In this document: piece by piece, positions 13,150 to 24,438 of the stretch
How positions within the stretch are numbered: position 1 is the stretch's first letter
Layout: each line of letters begins with the position of its first letter
Assembly (NCBI GenBank): GCA_017394405.1
Contig: JAFPYW010000011.1
Coordinates: 1-34,838 of the forward strand
Length of the DNA: 34,838 bases
Direction: 5' to 3'
Source: Alphaproteobacteria bacterium
Lineage (GTDB): Bacteria; Pseudomonadota; Alphaproteobacteria; CAAHEQ01; UBA3637
The notes under the pieces: generated by a model
What the model was told of the DNA's origin: nothing
What the model saw: the letters and a program-made list of their open reading frames with translations, nothing else
The model's database searches: none
Translations under genes and position numbers: made by a program

Positions 13150-13938
13150 ATGAGTGAAATTATTATACACACAAAGGAAGATTTTGTTGGCTTGCGCGCC
13201 GCGGGGCGTTTAGCCGCAGAAACATTGGATTACATTACACCTTTTGTAAAGGTGGGTGTTGATACCGAATATCTGGATAACCTGATGAACGAGTTTATTA
13301 AAAGCAAAGGTGGTGTGTCCGCTTGCTTAGGCTATCATGGATATCCAAAGGCCACCTGTATTTCACCCAATCATGTCATTTGTCACGGCATCCCCAGCCC
13401 GAACAAACATCTGCAAAACGGCGATATTATCAACATAGATGTGACCGTGATTTTGAATGGCTATTATGGCGATACCTCGCGCATGTATTTTGTGGGTCAT
13501 CCTTCCGTCAAAGCCAAGCGCTTGGTTATGAACGCCTATGACACGATGATGGCTGGAATAAATGCTGTGAAGCCGGGCGCTACGACGGGCGATTTGGGCT
13601 ATGCGATGGAAAAAACAGCCGAAAAAGAAGGTTTTTCCGTTGTACGTGATTATTGCGGTCACGGCTGTGGCAAAGTCTTTCACGGCGCACCAAACATTTT
13701 GAATTTTGGCCGTAAAGGCAGCGGCGTCAAGATTGTGCCGGGCATGGTCTTTACGGTAGAACCGATGGTCAATGTCGGTACCTTTGAAACAGTTGTTTTG
13801 GGCGATGATTGGACGGTTGTGACAAAAGACAAGCAACTTTCCGCGCAATTTGAACACATGTTGGGCGTGACGGAAGACGGCTTTGAAATCTTCACGCTTT
13901 CGCCAAAAGGATGGAACTTTCCGCCCTATAATGAATAA
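13150..13938 (+). CDS. map: methionine aminopeptidase, type I
   Basis: Removes the initiator methionine from nascent proteins in the cytoplasm. The 262-residue protein has all five metal ligands: D97 (INIDVT), D108 (YYGDTS), H171 (CGHGCG), E204 (TVEPM) and E235 (QFEHM), plus the substrate histidine H79 (VICHGIP). It is a compact type Ia enzyme without an N-terminal zinc extension. The ATG at 13150 is the only sensible start because the extended -10 lies immediately upstream. The gene is therefore predicted to be translated from a leaderless message. No terminator is seen after it; a new promoter begins 11 bases past its stop. Confidence 0.97.
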   Translation: MSEIIIHTKEDFVGLRAAGRLAAETLDYITPFVKVGVDTEYLDNLMNEFIKSKGGVSACLGYHGYPKATCISPNHVICHGIPSPNKHLQNGDIINIDVTVILNGYYGDTSRMYFVGHPSVKAKRLVMNAYDTMMAGINAVKPGATTGDLGYAMEKTAEKEGFSVVRDYCGHGCGKVFHGAPNILNFGRKGSGVKIVPGMVFTVEPMVNVGTFETVVLGDDWTVVTKDKQLSAQFEHMLGVTEDGFEIFTLSPKGWNFPPYNE

Positions 13939-13948
13939 GTTATTATTC

Positions 13949-13977
13949 TTGACATCTTCTGCACTTTATTATATTTT
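13949..13977 (+). promoter_or_regulatory. promoter of the first pilin-like cysteine-rich gene
   Basis: TTGACA (13949-13954), 17 bases, TATTTT (13972-13977), 23 bases before the start codon. Consensus -35, weaker -10. Confidence 0.7.
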
Positions 13978-14000
13978 GCAAACAAAGGGGGAGATCAAGA

Positions 14001-16610
14001 ATGCGCTCAAAGCATAATCAGCAGGGCAGAACTTTAGTAGAAGTTATTGGCATTTTGGCTATTTTAGCGATTCTCACCATCGGCGGACTCACCCTATTTG
14101 AGATGGCAAGTTCCGGCGCTATTTCCAAAAATTTAATGGATGCAACAGTTGAATTAGCCATTTCACGGCGCAATACGCTTTTATCTCCCATGGCAAAATT
14201 AGATGCGGATAAACTCGTTCGCACCGGCCCACACAATACCCCCATGAGTGTGGAAAATGGTCAAGGATCTTCCGATGATATATTTTGGGTCACATTGGGA
14301 TCGCAAGACCATTTAATTGCACAAGATATTTGCAACGAATTATTGAAAAAATCTGAAAAATTAAGAACTTCCAAACTGGGTTTTGTCGCCATGACATTAG
14401 ACGATACACCCGTGACTCAATGCGATCATGATGGCGAAATAAAATTTTTATTTAGTAAAATAGCTATAAATGCAGATGCCTCTGGTTCATGGATTAAACC
14501 ACACACCCCTTCAGAGGAAGAATGTCCTTCCCGTTTGTGTCCGACCGGAGGCGTTTGTTCGGGTGGCAATCTTTCCGCATGTTTGCCGGGATATCATATG
14601 GTTTCTTGCGACACCTGTAACGTGACCTGTCAAAAATGTCCAGCCGGCACCTACATGCCCACCCAAACAACCTCATGCGAAGATTGTTTGCCTTGCTCAT
14701 CAGAGATACAACATACAAATACAACCCAAACACAATGTATCCAATTAAAACCCGGGGATCGTTGCCCCAGCGGCGGTTTTGTCAATGATGATTTAGATTG
14801 TGTTGATTGCCTTTCATCAGATAATTGTGACCCCGGTGAAGTGTGTGATTCCACTACCTTTACCTGTCGCAAAGATTGTGGCGACGGAAAAGTTGCTGAT
14901 GAAAACGGCATCTGTCACGAATGTGATGATGATGGGGATTGTGATATTTGCTATTCTTGTGACTCAACCACCTATAAATGCGAAAAAGATGCCAACAACC
15001 ACCCAGACAACGCAGAATGTCACCCCGATAGCAGCGGCTTTTATTGTAATGCGGGATATTATAAACATGATAATGTCTGTGTCGCATGTCCAGCCCCATT
15101 GACCAGCAATCAAGGCGCCACAAAAGAAGGTGATTGTTATTGTCCAAATAATTATTATTTAACAACCGAGGGTGTTTGTACCGCCTGTGTAAGTGGCAGC
15201 ACCAGTATCGGACCAAACGCCACAACATGCACTTGTACCGATGACACAAAAGAATGGAATCCAACCACAAACACATGCAAAATACAAATTCATTGTGGCG
15301 ATAATGCTTCGGCAATAGACGAAACATGTTGGTGCAATGCAGGATATTATGGCGACGGACAAATATGTACGAAATGTGGCGGCTACGGATTCACCTCAAC
15401 CCCTGGCGAAAATACCACCACCGAAAGTTGTTATTGTCCAGACGGCTCATTCATTTGGCCAGACGATCCTATATTCTGCGCATTATGTGAATCCGTTGAT
15501 GCCATAGGAAGCGTCAGCCACAAAAACGCAACCGCCTGTGTTTGTCCGGCAGGCCATTGGTGGGATGCACAATCGGTCTATTGTACATCTTGTCCTTACA
15601 ATACAACCAGTGATCAAGGTTCCACAAAAGAAAGTGATTGCTATTGCCCAGATAATTATTATTTAAGACAGCCAAATAATTTGAATTCGTGTGATCCTTG
15701 TGATGAAGACAGTACCAGTCAAGGCCCAAACGCCACAGCATGTGTTTGTCAAACAGGTTATTATTGGGATGATGGTTGTCTGCCCTGCCCAGACAATTCA
15801 AGCTCAGATGGAACATCTTGTATTTGCCAAGAAAATTATTATTGGAATCAAAATTATTGTGCGCAATGCCCGAGCAAAATTGGCCCAATAGGAGCCGCCT
15901 CGGTAGATAAATGTTGTGCAGCAGACCAAGTGTTGGATCCAGACAGCAATACTTGTGTAAGTTGTATAAATGATAACAATTGTGCTGGGGACATGACATG
16001 CAACAGCAACCACACCTGTGAATGCCCCAATACGGGCAGATGGATAACCCTGACTGACGGAACATCCGCTTGTGTTGTTTTGGAAACACACACCTTAGGT
16101 ACTGGCTCATACACGAAAAAAGTTCATTTAACAAAGAGCCTGTATACTTTCGCTGACGCCCAAAAAATTTGTAATGCATGGGGAAAAACTTTGTTTTGGA
16201 GTTATTCTTTAAGGAAAGTAACAAATGCAAAAGTCGACCCATATCAACAAACCATCGAGACAGGAACGCCTTCTGAAACCCAAGCAAAATGGTGTGTTAA
16301 CGCCACATGGACTCCTTCACCACTTACAAACGAAAATGGGAATTTTGCCTGTTGTTGGTATTATGACGAACAAGAAAAACAGCAAAAGTGGGTTGAAGAC
16401 CTTGATGATATTATTGGACCATCAATGACTTTTTGGACAGGAAACACCAAATGTTCTGGAAATACAGGCATGGTGGCATATGCACACTGGACACAATACA
16501 CAAATCAAGATCCTGATTTCGTAGGTGTATATAGAAAATTCTGGTATTTCGTTTCTATGACAAACGTCCGCACCGGTGCGCTTGCCACTGTTATTTGTAA
16601 TGATTGGTAA
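14001..16610 (+). CDS. giant pilin-headed cysteine-rich protein with lectin-like C-terminus (869 aa)
   Basis: The N-terminus is a type IV prepilin signal: a short charged leader to G9, then RTLVEV with glutamate at +5 and a hydrophobic helix to about residue 32. Mature position +1 is Arg where Phe or Met is usual. A pilin-like globular part runs to about 170, with a probable disulfide pair C111/C141. From 175 to about 690 there are dense cysteine repeats (12 cysteines in 175-246 alone) of the CPAGTY...C..CLPC type, reminiscent of TNFR- or ephrin-receptor-like modules. Residues about 695-869 form a separate domain with FADAQKICNAWGKTLF (717-732) and a terminal VICNDW, recalling C-type lectin folds. 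GGGGGAG lies before ATG 14001. Likely exported and displayed; adhesion or tip function is inference. No pilus assembly genes are in the window. Its 3' end lies 2 bases from that of convergent uvrA. Confidence 0.88.
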   Translation: MRSKHNQQGRTLVEVIGILAILAILTIGGLTLFEMASSGAISKNLMDATVELAISRRNTLLSPMAKLDADKLVRTGPHNTPMSVENGQGSSDDIFWVTLGSQDHLIAQDICNELLKKSEKLRTSKLGFVAMTLDDTPVTQCDHDGEIKFLFSKIAINADASGSWIKPHTPSEEECPSRLCPTGGVCSGGNLSACLPGYHMVSCDTCNVTCQKCPAGTYMPTQTTSCEDCLPCSSEIQHTNTTQTQCIQLKPGDRCPSGGFVNDDLDCVDCLSSDNCDPGEVCDSTTFTCRKDCGDGKVADENGICHECDDDGDCDICYSCDSTTYKCEKDANNHPDNAECHPDSSGFYCNAGYYKHDNVCVACPAPLTSNQGATKEGDCYCPNNYYLTTEGVCTACVSGSTSIGPNATTCTCTDDTKEWNPTTNTCKIQIHCGDNASAIDETCWCNAGYYGDGQICTKCGGYGFTSTPGENTTTESCYCPDGSFIWPDDPIFCALCESVDAIGSVSHKNATACVCPAGHWWDAQSVYCTSCPYNTTSDQGSTKESDCYCPDNYYLRQPNNLNSCDPCDEDSTSQGPNATACVCQTGYYWDDGCLPCPDNSSSDGTSCICQENYYWNQNYCAQCPSKIGPIGAASVDKCCAADQVLDPDSNTCVSCINDNNCAGDMTCNSNHTCECPNTGRWITLTDGTSACVVLETHTLGTGSYTKKVHLTKSLYTFADAQKICNAWGKTLFWSYSLRKVTNAKVDPYQQTIETGTPSETQAKWCVNATWTPSPLTNENGNFACCWYYDEQEKQQKWVEDLDDIIGPSMTFWTGNTKCSGNTGMVAYAHWTQYTNQDPDFVGVYRKFWYFVSMTNVRTGALATVICNDW
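15087..15236 (+). repeat. intragenic cysteine-rich repeat, copy A
   Basis: Encodes CPAPLTSNQGATKEGDC, then NNYYL and GPNATTCTC. It matches copy B at 15591-15749 in residue order and partly at base level (both have CCACAAAAGAA and AATTATTATTTAA). Offset is 504 bases at the start. Confidence 0.75.
15591..15749 (+). repeat. intragenic cysteine-rich repeat, copy B
   Basis: Encodes CPYNTTSDQGSTKESDC, then DNYYL and GPNATACVC. It is 9 bases longer than copy A, from a small insertion after the NYYL segment. The close base-level match suggests a fairly recent internal duplication or gene conversion. Confidence 0.75.
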
Positions 16611-16612
16611 AA

Positions 16613-19396
16613 TTATTTCAATATCTTCTTTAGGTATTGGCCGGTATAGCTTTCTTTGACTTTGGCGACTTGTTCGGGTGTGCCTGTGGCCACAACTTTA
16701 CCGCCGGCATGACCACCCTCGGGCCCCATATCAATGATATAATCGGCCGATTTGATGATGTCCAAGTTATGTTCGATCACAACAACAGTATTACCTGCAT
16801 CCACCAACGCTTGCAGCACCTCCAACAATTTTTGAATATCCGCAAAATGCAAACCCGTTGTCGGCTCGTCCAAAATATACAAGGTCTTTCCTGTTGATTT
16901 GCGCGCCAATTCTTTGGCCAATTTTATGCGTTGTGCTTCGCCACCCGATAAAGTGACAGCCGATTGACCCAGCGTGATATAGCCCAAACCAACTTTGCGC
17001 AATAAATCACATTTATCACGAATGCTTGGCACATGACCGAAGAATTCAAATGCTTCGTCCACCGTCATATTCAAAACATCTGCAATAGACTTGTCTTTAT
17101 ATGTAATCTCCAAAGTTTCACGGTTATAGCGTGTACCATGACATACATCACAGGTCACATACACATCTGGCAAAAAGTTCATGGAAATTTGTTTCACGCC
17201 ATCACCCTCACACGCTTCACACCGCCCGCCCGCTACATTAAACGAAAAACGACCCGCTTTGTAGCCACGCGCTTTGGCTTCCGGAAGCGCTGCATACCAA
17301 TCACGAATCGGTGAGAACATGCCTGTATAGGTGGCAGGATTTGACCGCGGGGTCCGTCCGATCGGGCTTTGGTCAATATCAATAATCTTGTCAATCGCCG
17401 CCGTGCCACGCATAGTCTTGTAAGGACCCGCCAATTGCTTTGTCTTGCTGATAATATTGCTTAAGCCCTTGTACAAAGTTTCAATAATCAAACTGGATTT
17501 ACCACCACCGGACACACCCGTTACACAGGTAAATGTGCCAAGAGGAATATCCACCGTCACGTTTTTCAGGTTGTGGCATTTTGCGCCTTCAATCGTTAAC
17601 AACTTACCATTTCCCGCACGACGTTTGGATGGCACCTTGATTTCTTTCGTGCCAGACAGATATTGTCCTGTGACTGATTTTGGATTTGCGGCAATTTCTT
17701 TTGGACTACCCTCGGCCACTAAATGCCCACCCAACCGTCCCGCTTTCGGACCGATATCAAAAATATAATCGGCGGCCTCCATTGTTTCCTGATCGTGCTC
17801 CACCACAATGACAGAATTGCCCAAATCACGCAAATGGAAAAGCGTTTCCAATAATTTATGATTGTCGCGCTGATGCAAACCGATAGATGGCTCATCCAAC
17901 ACATACAACACGCCCGTCAAACCCGATCCAATCTGGCTGGCAAGACGAATCCGCTGTGCTTCACCACCAGACAAGGTACCACTAATACGATTCAAGGGCA
18001 AATAGCCCAAACCAACATTGTTCAAAAAGCGCAGGCGTTCCACAATTTCTTTCAAGATACGTTCCGCAATTTCTTGTTTCTCGTGGTCTAATTTGGACGG
18101 CACTTTTTGGAACCATTCAAAAGAATCGGCAATGGAAAGTTCTGTCACTTCTGCAATATTTTTGCCCGCAATCTTAACGGCCAACGCTTCGGGTTTTAAC
18201 CTGGCACCACCACACGCTTCACAGGGCGTTTTAAGCATATATTTGCTCATTTCCTCGCGCGCCCAATCGGATTCCGTTTCCAAATAACGCCGTTCCATAT
18301 TTGGAATCACACCTTCAAAATGACAACCCTTTGTATGATAGCCGTGCAAAATGGCTTCTTGCGTTTCTTTTGGCAATTTACACCATGGCGTGTCCATATC
18401 TAAATCTAAGGCGCGGATCAGGGGACGCAAAGCATACTCATGCCATTGATACATGTCACCAGAAGTACTTGTCCACGGAGCAATTGCACCTTGTTTGATA
18501 GAAAGTTCTGGATGTTGAATAACCAAACTTTCATCCACGCCTTGCTTGGTTCCTAAACCTGCGCAAACGGGACAAGCGCCCTCGGGATTGTTAAACGAAA
18601 ACAAACGCGGCTCCAATTCGGCGATTGTAAAACCAGACACGGGACAGGCAAACTTGCTGGAATAAATTTTGGTTTCGTGTGTGGCAATGTTTTCCACCTC
18701 CAACAATCCATCCGCCAAAGAAAGGCATTTTTCAACGGATCCCGCAATACGCCCTTCGGCTTCCTTTTTCACAACCACACGATCCACCACGACACAAATC
18801 GTATGCTTTTGATTTTTATCTAACTCAGGCGCTTCCTCAATTTCACAAAATTCGCCATCCACTTTCAAACGTGTAAAACCCGCCTTTTGCCAAGCAGCTA
18901 TTTCTTTTTTATACTCCCCCTTGCGATCACGCACAACAGGAGCCATCAAAATCAACTTTGTGCCATCTTGTTCGGCCAAAATGCCGTCAGTCATCTGGCT
19001 GACCGTCATAGCCTTAATTGGCAGGCCCGTGGCGGGGGAATATGGTGTCCCCGCGCGAGCCCACAACAACCGCATATAGTCATAAATTTCCGTCACCGTA
19101 CCAACGGTAGAGCGTGGATTGTGGCTGGTTGTTTTTTGCTCAATAGAAATAGCGGGTGACAGCCCTTCAATTAAATCCACATCCGGTTTGCCCATCACAT
19201 CCAAAAACTGACGCGCATAAGCGGACAAACTTTCCACATAACGCCGTTGCCCTTCCGCATAAATGGTATCAAAAGCCAAACTGGATTTACCCGAACCGGA
19301 CACACCTGTAATCACCACCAATTGATTTTTCGGAATATCAAGATTGATGTTTTTCAGGTTGTGTTGGCGTGCGCCACGGATTTTAATATAGTCCAT
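16613..19396 (-). CDS. uvrA: excinuclease ABC subunit A (UvrA)
   Basis: The damage-recognition ATPase of nucleotide excision repair; it loads UvrB on lesions. The 927-residue protein has two ABC modules. The first Walker A is GVSGSGKSS (31-39). A UvrB-binding and zinc region follows with CPVSGF and [17 protein letters not shown], then [14 protein letters not shown] and signature [12 protein letters not shown]. The second module has [10 protein letters not shown], a zinc module [12 protein letters not shown]...[10 protein letters not shown], and a second [13 protein letters not shown] start it at ATG 19396, which has AAGGAG 5 bases upstream; the open frame extends to 19576 through the promoter and is not coding there. 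It converges on the pilin-like gene with a 2-base gap. Confidence 0.97.
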
Positions 19397-19418
19397 TTGT
19401 GCTCCTTGTTGGGCAAGT

Positions 19419-19447
19419 ATTATACACGATTTTATGCATAAAATCAA
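19419..19447 (-). promoter_or_regulatory. promoter of uvrA with a perfect palindrome between -35 and -10
   Basis: On the minus strand TTGATT (19447-19442), 17 bases, TATAAT (19424-19419). The spacer carries the perfect 18-base palindrome GATTTTATGCATAAAATC (19428-19445), the classical place for a repressor to block RNA polymerase. It does not contain GTTC half-sites of the usual alphaproteobacterial LexA box. Confidence 0.75.
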
Positions 19448-19497
19448 ACAGATTTTAGAATGTATTTTATACTCCATATAAAATAAACCACGTTTTT

Positions 19498-19526
19498 TTG
19501 ACAAAAAACGATTTTTGTGATATAAT
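19498..19526 (+). promoter_or_regulatory. consensus promoter of the two-gene hypothetical operon
   Basis: TTGACA (19498-19503), 17 bases, TATAAT (19521-19526): a perfect match at both hexamers. The inverted repeat CGTTTTTT (19491-19498) / AAAAAACG (19503-19510) is centred on the -35 and could be an operator. Strong constitutive expression is expected unless repressed. Confidence 0.85.
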
Positions 19527-19553
19527 ACTATTGTTTTAACAAAGGAGGAAACT

Positions 19554-19994
19554 ATGTCACCAAAAACAAAAGCCATTTGGAAAACCGTAGGTGCCGTCTT
19601 GGCCGGCGCTCTTACATTTGCCTATTTACCACTTGTCTCTTTTGCGGCCGTACCACAAGCAATGGGGTGGTTGCACTTTACTCTTGCCGCAATTTACCCA
19701 TGGTTGGGTGATGCATTGTTAGGGGCTAGTGTTGCGTCTGGTGTTGGATTAGCCATCAAAAAGATTTGGGGCGGATACTTTGCTGAAAAAAGAATTGAAA
19801 AGAAAATTAAAGACGCATTAAAACAAAAGGCCTTGGAACACAAACAAGCGGTCAGCAAACAAAAAACTCGTCAATATGACTACGTTGATGAAGCGGAAAT
19901 GCCTCGCGCAAAAACCAAAAAAGCGCCCGCGAAATTAACACGACCTGCCGCCACGAAAGCGATGAAAAATCGTCGTCAAAAAGAAGCCGCATAA
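19554..19994 (+). CDS. hypothetical membrane protein with Lys-rich tail
   Basis: A 146-residue protein I do not recognise. Two hydrophobic stretches are visible, at about 11-34 ([20 protein letters not shown]) and 40-68, followed by a long basic tail with [14 protein letters not shown] and [14 protein letters not shown]. The first stretch could also be a cleavable signal peptide ending near SFA-AVP. The AAAGGAGG site is excellent and the promoter is consensus, so the product is probably abundant. It forms an operon with the next gene 21 bases downstream. The strongly basic tail might contact nucleic acid or phospholipid; no function is assigned. Confidence 0.8.
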
Positions 19995-21273: not shown

Positions 21274-24200
21274 ATGGCCGGTGAATTAACAAAAAACACC
21301 CAGAAAAGGCCTGCTTTGTGTATCGCACAAAGTGGTCGTACTATGGTTGAAATGATTGCCGTTTTAGTCATCATTGCCATTTTGGGTATCGGGGCTTTAG
21401 CGCTGTACAGATCCGCCATGAACAGGCAATTAGCCGACACGCTTTATAATGATTTCAAAGTACGATCCGTGTTGAGTTCTGATCGCAAAAATTTCTTTTC
21501 AGGTGGTTCTGGCGCACAAGAAGCCGACAGCCAATCACGAATGACAAAATCCACATACGGGAATCAAATGATCATTCTGCAAAACGAGCCAACAGAAGGG
21601 TACTTTACCATCTCGGCTTATGATGTTGAACCAGCCATTTGTGAGCGTTTATTGCAACAAGAATGGCCCGTCAACGAGGCAGGCAAGCCGATTAAATGCC
21701 AAATTTATTTGGACAACAAACCCTTTGGAATATCCATTCACAAATGTCCGAATACGCCCGTAAAATTTTCTGTAGCCTATCGTTCCGCACATGCCGGTAC
21801 AACTCAAGCTTTGACACATTGCCAAAATAATGATGATTGTTGTGAAGATCCAGCCAATTGTTCATACGAGTGCAACAAAGATCCGGCCCAAGAATACGGT
21901 TCCTGCCGTAAACAAACAATCACGTGTAATCCCGGCGAATTTTTAGACGGCGGGATTTGTAGATCTTGCGGAACCATCTCCGGTACCACAGGAACACAAA
22001 TGTCCGCCCAACAATGTTACCAATGTGGCTATACCTATATCGCCACAGAACGTCGGTGCTACGGCCCATGTGATTCGAACAATCAGTTTAGGGCAAACAC
22101 TGGAAAATGCGTCCCTTGCAATTCTGTGGACAAGGTGACAGCGCCAGATGCGGAATGTGCAAATTGCCCCAATCGTTATACATTAAACGGCATTTGTTAC
22201 CCGGCCTGTCAAGGCGGATATTTCCGCAGCCTTGAGGGCAAATGTATAGCATGTTCTAACAAAGATGTTGTTGCTGCTGATCAAACACAATGCCAGCGGT
22301 GTGACGCCCAGCGCGTTTGGAATTCTGCCGATTCCGGTTGTTCATTGGATTGTGCTAGCGGATTTATCAACGCAACAGGAACATGTATTGATTGCGATGA
22401 TGAAACAAGCACTGGCGCGGATATCCTTGTTACTAATGAATCAGACGCCACTTGCAATCCTAACGAACGTTTCTTGACAGACGACAAGCACTATGTCCAT
22501 TGTAATGCATCCGGGTCATTCAAAACTACTGATATGGACGCTTGTTTAGCCTGTGCCAATCGTTTTATAGATGATGGAAATAATTGTATTACATGCGATT
22601 TTGCTAACAGTGCCACCATTTCTTCGCCAGAAATTTGTGACAGATGTGATGGTCGTTATTGGTCCGATAACGCCTGTTATCCAAAATGTAATGATGGCGA
22701 ATTCCACGATAAAAATGGTAATTGCGTCCAATGTGATGCGACAACGGACGTTGAGGCAGACGAAGATGAATGCGACCGTTGCGACGGCGACAGAACGTGG
22801 GATACTGGCATCTGCAAAACACCACATTGCGATGGATTTAAAAACAGCAATGGTCAATGTATCCCGTGCAGTTATGTCGGTGAAGATGATTCAACTCGGG
22901 TAGATAATGCCGACGCCTGTCATGCTTGCGACAATCGTTTCATTGATAGTAATAACAAATGTACCTCTTGCGATTCTATCAACAATATCGGATCAGAACA
23001 ACAACCTTGCCGCAGATGTAATGGACGTTATTTTAATACCGATACCTGTTATCCAAAATGTGATTTGGATGAATTCCACAACACGGACGGAACTTGCGTG
23101 CCGTGTGATTCTGACTCAGACATTGCTGCAGACGAAGACGAATGTAATAGTTGTGGGAACGACAGAACATGGAACAATGGTGTTTGTTCCCGCAAATGTA
23201 ATGGATTCAGAAACATCAATGGGAACTGTATCTCGTGCAATGACACCAGAACAGATGATAGCATTAAAGTGGCTGATGCAACAGCTTGTAATGTTTGTGA
23301 CAACAGATTCTTTGCGACCACAGACAACAACACTGTTGAGGCAAACAGAAAAACAAACATGTGCTATCTGTGTTCACAACCAAGTGGTGGAACTCAAAGC
23401 AACAAGATAGACCCCATTACAGACAGCGATCAATGCAACAGATGTGTCACGTATGCCACCAGTTTATATAATGGTGGGACCGGTGCGCTTGCAACACAAC
23501 AAAACCTTCGTGCATGGAGTAATAAGCAAGAATGCCGTAGCCCCTGTGCAACCGGAGCAACAATAGAGCAATCAGTGCATGCAGATACAAAACAACTGTG
23601 TCAAACATTTGACAAGACAATATCAACGAGTCGCCCTAAATGGACCAAAGTTTCAGTATTAGAATGTGCCATAGTCGGTGGAGATTATACAACTGCAAGC
23701 AATGGAACCTGTTACAAGTGGGATTGTGAAAGCGATGAATTCCGCGATACAGAACATTCGGATCAAAGAATCTGTATAAAATGTACATCCCCAGATGCCA
23801 TTTCCACCATAGAAAGCGCCTGTTTATCCTGTAATAAAAACGGGGAAACGTTGCGCGTCTTTGAATCAACCGAGGCCAATTCTGCCATAAAGAAATGTTT
23901 CTTGGCTCAATGTCCAGAAGGCACCATACGAACAGATACTGGATGTCAGGACGAAGCGCCCTGCAATTCTGGCCAATTCAAAGATTCCGATGGTCAATGC
24001 ATCAGCTGCACAAACACAGACTCCATCCAAACAACAGAAATTGCCTGCAAAGCATGTTCAAATCGTTTTTATGCAAATGGTATTTGTTATCCGTGTTCTT
24101 ATCCGTCAGATGTTACAACAACAGCGGATCAATGCACTCGTTGTATTACCTATGCAACCGGATTGGGTGTCGGTCTTTCCGCTCAACAGAATTTGCGTGC

Positions 24201-24438
24201 CTATTGGTCAAGTAATGGACAATGTCGAAAGCCCTGTGCCACAACAAGCGATACAGAGGTTCAACCCTATGCACACGCAGGATGGACTGGTAGCGGTTAT
24301 CAAAACAACTGCCGACCATTTAATGAATCTCCTGATCCAAGTCTCACGACTTCAAAATTTGAGTGTGATATTGTCAAACTAATACTTCCTCAGGCCCAAA
24401 TGAGTGGCAAAAAATGTTATGTGTATACAACACCATAA
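21274..24438 (+). CDS. giant pilin-headed cysteine-rich repeat protein (1054 aa)
   Basis: Same architecture as the 869-residue protein at 14001. A leader ends at G21, then RTMVEM with glutamate at +5, a hydrophobic helix to about 45, and a pilin-like domain to about 175. The motif ICERLL (122-127) plus C-x4-KF (158-164) parallels ICNELL and C-x5-KF in the other protein. From about 183 to the end it is built of cysteine repeats of the kind CDNRF...NKCTSCD. These include a 124-residue super-repeat (residues 455-578 and onward) and a C-terminal module present twice (721 onward and 954 onward) with TYAT, QQNLRA and C-R-x-PCAT. No membrane anchor exists other than the pilin helix. GGAGAG precedes ATG 21274. 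Probably exported, disulfide-rich and surface-displayed; function unknown. Confidence 0.88.
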   Translation: MAGELTKNTQKRPALCIAQSGRTMVEMIAVLVIIAILGIGALALYRSAMNRQLADTLYNDFKVRSVLSSDRKNFFSGGSGAQEADSQSRMTKSTYGNQMIILQNEPTEGYFTISAYDVEPAICERLLQQEWPVNEAGKPIKCQIYLDNKPFGISIHKCPNTPVKFSVAYRSAHAGTTQALTHCQNNDDCCEDPANCSYECNKDPAQEYGSCRKQTITCNPGEFLDGGICRSCGTISGTTGTQMSAQQCYQCGYTYIATERRCYGPCDSNNQFRANTGKCVPCNSVDKVTAPDAECANCPNRYTLNGICYPACQGGYFRSLEGKCIACSNKDVVAADQTQCQRCDAQRVWNSADSGCSLDCASGFINATGTCIDCDDETSTGADILVTNESDATCNPNERFLTDDKHYVHCNASGSFKTTDMDACLACANRFIDDGNNCITCDFANSATISSPEICDRCDGRYWSDNACYPKCNDGEFHDKNGNCVQCDATTDVEADEDECDRCDGDRTWDTGICKTPHCDGFKNSNGQCIPCSYVGEDDSTRVDNADACHACDNRFIDSNNKCTSCDSINNIGSEQQPCRRCNGRYFNTDTCYPKCDLDEFHNTDGTCVPCDSDSDIAADEDECNSCGNDRTWNNGVCSRKCNGFRNINGNCISCNDTRTDDSIKVADATACNVCDNRFFATTDNNTVEANRKTNMCYLCSQPSGGTQSNKIDPITDSDQCNRCVTYATSLYNGGTGALATQQNLRAWSNKQECRSPCATGATIEQSVHADTKQLCQTFDKTISTSRPKWTKVSVLECAIVGGDYTTASNGTCYKWDCESDEFRDTEHSDQRICIKCTSPDAISTIESACLSCNKNGETLRVFESTEANSAIKKCFLAQCPEGTIRTDTGCQDEAPCNSGQFKDSDGQCISCTNTDSIQTTEIACKACSNRFYANGICYPCSYPSDVTTTADQCTRCITYATGLGVGLSAQQNLRAYWSSNGQCRKPCATTSDTEVQPYAHAGWTGSGYQNNCRPFNESPDPSLTTSKFECDIVKLILPQAQMSGKKCYVYTTP
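22636..23007 (+). repeat. 124-codon super-repeat, copy 1
   Basis: A 372-base in-frame unit encoding a series CDRCDGRYWS, YPKCNDGEFH, EADEDECDRC, DRTWDTGICK and CDGFKNSNGQC, then DACHACDNRF. Every landmark recurs in copy 2 in the same order; the GRYW and GRYF codons lie exactly 372 bases apart. Confidence 0.85.
23008..23330 (+). repeat. 124-codon super-repeat, copy 2 (diverges at its end)
   Basis: Encodes CRRCNGRYFN, YPKCDLDEFH, AADEDECNSC, DRTWNNGVCS and CNGFRNINGNC, then TACNVCDNRF, after which it diverges. Directly abuts copy 1. The 3' boundary is approximate. Confidence 0.8.
23434..23730 (+). repeat. C-terminal-type module, internal copy
   Basis: Encodes CNRCVTYATSL, TQQNLRAW, ECRSPCAT, LECAIV and GTCYKW. 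It parallels the module that ends the protein at 24133-24435. End is approximate. Confidence 0.75.
24133..24435 (+). repeat. C-terminal-type module, terminal copy
   Basis: Encodes CTRCITYATGL, AQQNLRAYW, QCRKPCAT, FECDIV and KKCYVY and then stops. Second copy of the module at 23434; the conserved order of landmarks marks it as a folding unit and not as random cysteine repeats. Confidence 0.75.

Follow-up and report, generated by a model that had tools for sequence, protein, structure and literature searches.

A prepilin with a long cysteine-rich stalk and a changeable end: a candidate modular pilin adhesin from an alphaproteobacterium

What use can a bacterium have for a protein that starts as a type IV prepilin, goes on for some 500 residues as a dense run of cysteine repeats, and closes with a separate domain? 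The question is raised by one gene in the stretch of alphaproteobacterial DNA analyzed here (34,838 nucleotides, hereafter the window). The gene lies at positions 14001 to 16610 of the forward strand, and it encodes a protein of 869 amino acids that we call P0001. In our reading, to which we give a probability of about 0.7, P0001 belongs to the modular type IVb minor pilins and serves as a long-reach adhesin, most likely located at the pilus tip.

Gene and pilin head

The open reading frame and its four parts (prepilin signal, helix, cysteine stalk, and C-terminal domain) had been described from the letters alone, and all of that description is confirmed in the sequence. P0001 is not a chance open reading frame, because it has a full-length homolog in another genome and because other proteins have kept its pilin module. 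The homologs also rule out a frameshift or chance as the source of its cysteine richness. The ribosome-binding site is good (GGAG at 13990 to 13993, + strand, within ggggag, with the ATG 7-8 nt downstream). A promoter-like site before it (TTGACA-17-TATTTT, 13949 to 13977, + strand) is a match to the consensus only, and promoter-like sites are no commoner in the region around the gene than expected by chance. No inverted repeats of note were found near the gene, which stands alone between two neighbors. The upstream one (13150 to 13938, + strand) we take from its translation to be a methionine aminopeptidase gene, and the downstream one (16613 to 19576, - strand) is, also by its translation, presumably uvrA.

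The first nine residues (14001 to 14027, + strand) read MRSKHNQQG, with the cut expected after G9; RTLVE and a hydrophobic helix come next. This puts a glycine at -1 and a glutamate at +5, as in type IV prepilins. An alignment of six related heads shows no variation at G9, R10, or E14, and the only two cysteines in residues 1-174 of P0001, C111 and C141, are kept in all six homologs. The Pfam model N_methyl matches residues 5-28 with an E-value of 0.017, which falls short of the cut-off of the model, and P0001 ranks second among the N_methyl matches of its own genome. The prepilin signal and helix that had been proposed are borne out by the leader, the invariant residues, and this sub-threshold match taken together.

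The AlphaFold2 model of P0001, built on an alignment of six rows, has a pLDDT of about 75-87 across most of the head. It predicts a helix at residues 11-61, strands at 71-75, 81-86, and 94-99, a helix at 108-122, and strands at 128-133 and 147-152. We thus describe the head as an N-terminal pilin helix (residues 10-61; 14028 to 14183, + strand) followed by a globular domain (residues 62-160; 14184 to 14480, + strand). When residues 11-156 are compared with known structures, the top four matches are all type IV pilins: TcpA (Z 8.4, 2.8 A over 124 residues), PilA1 (Z 8.2), CofA (7.6), and PilS (7.4), all of them Z-scores near the level that is common by chance. TcpA, CofA, and PilS are type IVb pilins. 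The predicted layout, a long helix and an alpha-beta head with a C-terminal disulfide, is also that of a type IVb pilin, a class assignment to be read with the Z-scores being close to chance level. The assignment as a pilin is nonetheless firm, as four independent pilins come out on top, over the expected residues, and behind a prepilin leader. The sequence-only reading had made its case depend on residues 33-170 folding as a small pilin-like domain, and the predicted head does resemble type IV pilins. The model therefore supports a type IVb-like pilin domain at the head of P0001.

Cysteine-rich stalk and end domain

Residues 175-690 (14523 to 16070, + strand) form the stalk, in which 69 of the 516 residues (13.4%) are cysteines, and which includes seven CxC...CxxC units at residues 379-623. 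The dense cysteine repeats are thus there as described. Do they resemble modules of eukaryotic receptors, as had also been claimed? In predicted fold, they do. Foldseek matches the stalk to mastigoneme proteins, to ELAPOR1, and to the cysteine-rich domains of Eph and TNF receptors, and residues 190-249 align structurally with the cysteine-rich domain of the calcium-sensing receptor (Z 7.1, 56 residues) as well as with DR5 and OX40. At the level of families there is no such likeness: none of the Pfam profiles for the TNFR, EGF, or Eph families matches P0001. P0001 residues 176-249 are therefore like the cysteine-rich domains of TNFR, Eph, and calcium-sensing receptors in predicted fold and in disulfide spacing, and they differ in being bacterial and in escaping all of those models. 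The likeness may be one of convergence. By its predicted layout and its stalk matches, P0001 is a pilin module joined to a module that is not specific to pili, which is the makeup of a modular pilin.

So many cysteines could also mean that this region is a redox or metal-binding device and that the pilin head is just a means of export. We find that very improbable: in its CxC...CxxC spacing and its predicted hairpins, the region agrees with disulfide-bonded receptor modules, and its length and sequence vary freely among relatives.

The end domain (residues 691-869; 16071 to 16607, + strand) has seven cysteines. The sequence-only reading had described a separate C-terminal domain with FADAQKICNAWGKTLF and a terminal VICNDW, both present as quoted, and had called it lectin-like. 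Support for this last claim is weak. Compared as profiles, the end domain shared by P0001 and its full-length homolog matches a set of lectins with probabilities of 36-50%. The hhalign match at 50% has an E-value of 1.7e-4 and a score of 28.5, higher than that of any of 150 column shuffles (best 22.4), and no more than 19 columns, those around FADAQKICNAWGKTLF, are aligned. Other anchors of C-type-lectin-like domains (FWTGN, C818, and the terminal VIC) are present by eye and in the right order. On the other hand, the end domain is absent from the hmmsearch matches listed up to E 10, it has no noteworthy match in PDB or Pfam, and nothing useful came from searching the PDB sequences with phmmer using P0001 or with profiles of the head and the end domain. 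The AlphaFold2 pLDDT of this domain is about 27 on the six-row alignment and 40 in a second run. The alignment for that second run was chosen from 200 random subsets for lining up four anchor residues, and it is biased toward a C-type-lectin answer because it was picked on those residues.

Thus, the anchors and the shuffle test lend the lectin claim a little weight, and a confident fold prediction and a database match do not come to its aid. Given 19 aligned columns, anchors found by eye, and pLDDT values of 27 and 40, we call the end domain possibly C-type-lectin-like. With such domains, Lcl_C included, it shares the cysteine signature of the first helix, the FWT motif, a late cysteine, and the C-terminal VIC/ALC; it differs in being longer (about 165-175 residues) and in being only marginally recognized by profile comparison.

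Relatives with changing ends

Matches to P0001 are found in 42 of 43 genomes of the family, mostly in the prepilin head. The full-length homolog (L061:8659-11400 in genome G003) has 913 residues, an E-value of 5e-68, and 29-36% identity, and it is the one partner with which P0001 shares its end domain, which is common to only 2 of the 43 genomes. The window has a second giant cysteine-rich prepilin (21274 to 24438, + strand; 1054 residues, 98 cysteines) with the same type of leader. It lies directly upstream of what we take, by gene names read from the sequence, to be the rimP-nusA-infB cluster. The L061 homolog adjoins what we again take to be rimP-nusA-infB, and so occupies in its genome the place that the 1054-residue prepilin has in the window; different giants therefore share chromosomal places. 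In total, about a dozen prepilins are encoded in the P0001 genome. The four giants among them measure 869, 1002, 1054, and at least 2367 residues, and the largest is an open reading frame that runs off the end of its contig (L066:1-7101, G000:C23), with 283 cysteines in the part available, and it is the longest pilin-headed one that we have seen.

Across these relatives, the pilin module is conserved, head and stalk are kept, and the end domain changes; it can be C-type-lectin-like, F5/8C, Hint, or other. For a profile of the ends of other giants, the 28 matches listed among PDB sequences are all C-type lectins or lectin-domain receptors (best E-value 0.0014). As examples of different ends, one prepilin has an F5/8 type C (discoidin) end (L097:1525-2730 in G005, E-value 6e-11), and another has a Hint (intein-like) end and adjoins a lectin-ended prepilin (L089:3329-4393 in G010, PF07591, E-value 9e-7). 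A further one has EGF-teneurin repeats (L101, E-value 2e-12). P0001 is a member of a lineage-wide set of prepilins with interchangeable ends, and the set probably serves to grip different targets. In a separate case, a prepilin end without a Pfam match resembles by eye a von Willebrand A domain (DIVLMVDQSSS; L094:3580-5145 in G046).

This diversity bears on an alternative role for P0001, that of a structural or priming minor pilin whose end docks a secreted partner or starts assembly and binds no target by itself. CofB and TcpB are such pilins: they have a type IVb pilin head, and their lectin-like third domain is the binding site for a secreted factor (PMC9565799). The P0001 head resembles TcpA and CofA. 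Still, a single priming role accounts less well than diversified binding for many paralogs with unrelated ends, and no obvious gene for a secreted partner adjoins P0001, so that we hold a priming role to be improbable.

Are the ends also diversified by other means? Reverse transcriptases are found in 10 of the 43 family genomes and in 0 of the 11 genomes of the genus. Three of the loci that we examined, from sister genera, are diversity-generating retroelements (DGRs) that act on small secreted lectin-like proteins (L111:553-3377, L106:615-3263, and L112:378-2527). Each pairs a template repeat with a variable repeat, and the latter lies at the 3′ end of the gene for the small lectin. Where the two repeats differ, the template has an adenine in 9 of 9 cases for L111, 11 of 11 for L106, and 16 of 17 for L112, and L111 and L106 encode an Avd-like protein. 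The small DGR lectins and the lectin ends of prepilins belong to one set.

One lectin-ended prepilin of a sister genus (L113:3-2076, G035) lies directly upstream of a shortened reverse transcriptase of the retroelement type. A paralog that is 80% identical to it (L084) has lower identity near the 3′ end, with a conserved tail after that. At their 3′ ends, L113, L084, and L125 are similar to the end of DGR variable repeats. The shared lectin set, the position of L113, and these 3′ ends suggest that retroelements act on pilins in sister genera. Copies of variable repeats are dispersed further, in L119, L120, and L121 (G012:C16, C32), and in L126 and L129-L133 (G011); seven matches to its template repeat are found in G011, the template itself included.

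P0001 itself was considered as a DGR target and rejected: the 11 genus genomes have no reverse transcriptase, and no tail resembling a variable repeat follows its stop codon. A more ambitious proposal, which we regard as tentative and on the doubtful side, is a type IVb pilus that can draw on a whole repertoire of giant tip proteins with stalks. Their lectin ends would come from a pool hypermutated by DGRs in sister genera, so that the specificity of the tips could change. P0001 would then be one fixed member of the tip repertoire. If true, this link to the retroelement-mutated lectins of the sister genera would add pilus tips to the sites at which proteins undergo targeted diversification.

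Pilus machinery, proposed role, and known pilins

For P0001 to be a pilin at work, there should be a pilus. It had been proposed that the machinery is encoded elsewhere in the genome, and that a genome lacking a prepilin peptidase would tell against the whole idea. The peptidase is there (A24; G000:C6:39690-39998, PF01478, E-value 8.7e-22), and so is a PilT-family ATPase. In the available assembly, which is 81% complete, a T2SSE of about 650 residues, a T2SSF, and a secretin were all not found, though the operon is present in congeners. T2SSE (about 650 residues) and T2SSF are found in each of the 8 congeners that we searched; 7 of these also have the secretin. The congener operon includes TcpQ (E-value 1.7e-18), a PilN-type secretin, PilO (1e-25), PilP, a PilQ-type ATPase (T2SSE, 4e-68), and a PilR-type platform protein (T2SSF, 2e-24); PilN (5e-80) and PilP (4e-7) are both just under their NCBIfam cut-offs. 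By these profile matches, the operon is an R64/IncI-like type IVb pilus set. Its neighbors differ among congeners. In G003 it is flanked by the enolase gene, and the same arrangement was looked for in the P0001 genome and rejected, as enolase has another neighbor here.

That the operon was not found in this assembly favors a different possibility, in which P0001 undergoes processing but no polymerization and is a prepilin-like surface protein, either anchored in the inner membrane or released, with the cysteine part as a spacer, a shield, or a soluble binder. Very large appendages are also unusual on filament subunits, and one paralog in the same genome has at least 2367 residues. Against this we set the prepilin peptidase, the type IVb operons of congeners, the retention of a pilin fold and helix, and the existence of large tip pilins (PMC8179133). 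On balance, we consider a protein that never enters a filament unlikely.

In the long-reach adhesin that we favor, the A24 prepilin peptidase of the genome would cut the P0001 leader after G9. The N-terminal helix and the pilin domain would then give the protein access to an R64-like type IVb pilus. The tip is its most likely position there, since an appendage of 700 residues hardly fits inside the shaft. The disulfide-rich stalk of 516 residues would set the end domain at a distance from the filament. That domain, perhaps C-type-lectin-like, would bind a glycan or a protein on a host, a ciliate, a plant particle, or other bacteria. Since the same pilin module is found with different ends in different genes, the cell could present several binding specificities. 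Both the adhesin role and the tip location are presumed from precedents (PMC8179133, PMC9045228, PMC9565799). The sequence-only reading thus stands in part: the pilin domain and, in fold, the receptor-like stalk have gained support, the lectin-like end has gained little, and the search of this assembly did not turn up the operon.

For a bacterium whose genome measures about 1 Mb, a dozen prepilins, several of them from 870 to more than 2300 residues long, are a heavy investment in contact with something outside the cell. Pili that carry receptor-like cysteine-rich stalks whose ends can be exchanged offer a concrete, testable account of how these uncultured gut Alphaproteobacteria attach to their partners. 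The bearer of P0001 is related to MAGs from ruminant guts, and it may belong to GTDB order Rs-D84, whose members have been described as gut bacteria that have reduced genomes and lack flagella (PMC12306168).

How does P0001 compare to the pilins already known? In Streptococcus sanguinis PilB, likewise, an N-terminal pilin module is followed by a separate functional module that is expected at the pilus tip and that binds host proteins (PMC8179133). P0001 differs from PilB by the 500-residue cysteine-rich stalk between the modules and by its type IVb-like head. Several giants with different ends are also carried here by one genome. The most extreme multi-domain pilin named in that survey (PMC8179133) has 860 residues, versus 1570 and at least 2367 for relatives of P0001. 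PilV of the IncI plasmids R64 and TP114, a type IVb minor pilin of the R64 type, has as here a constant head and alternative C-terminal adhesin ends, which in PilV choose the target cells (PMC9045228). In contrast to PilV, the ends here vary among separate chromosomal genes, with no shufflon as far as we have seen, and P0001 has its long cysteine-rich stalk. Finally, CofB and TcpB have a similar layout in three parts (type IVb pilin domain, middle region, lectin-like end), and the middle of CofB is a beta-repeat part where P0001 has a receptor-like cysteine-rich stalk (PMC9565799). The third domain of the CofB/TcpB kind is a homotrimeric H-type lectin, to be set against the low-confidence model of the P0001 end. 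Modular pilins are thus already known, and P0001 departs from them by its receptor-like cysteine stalk and by the exchangeable ends of its set.
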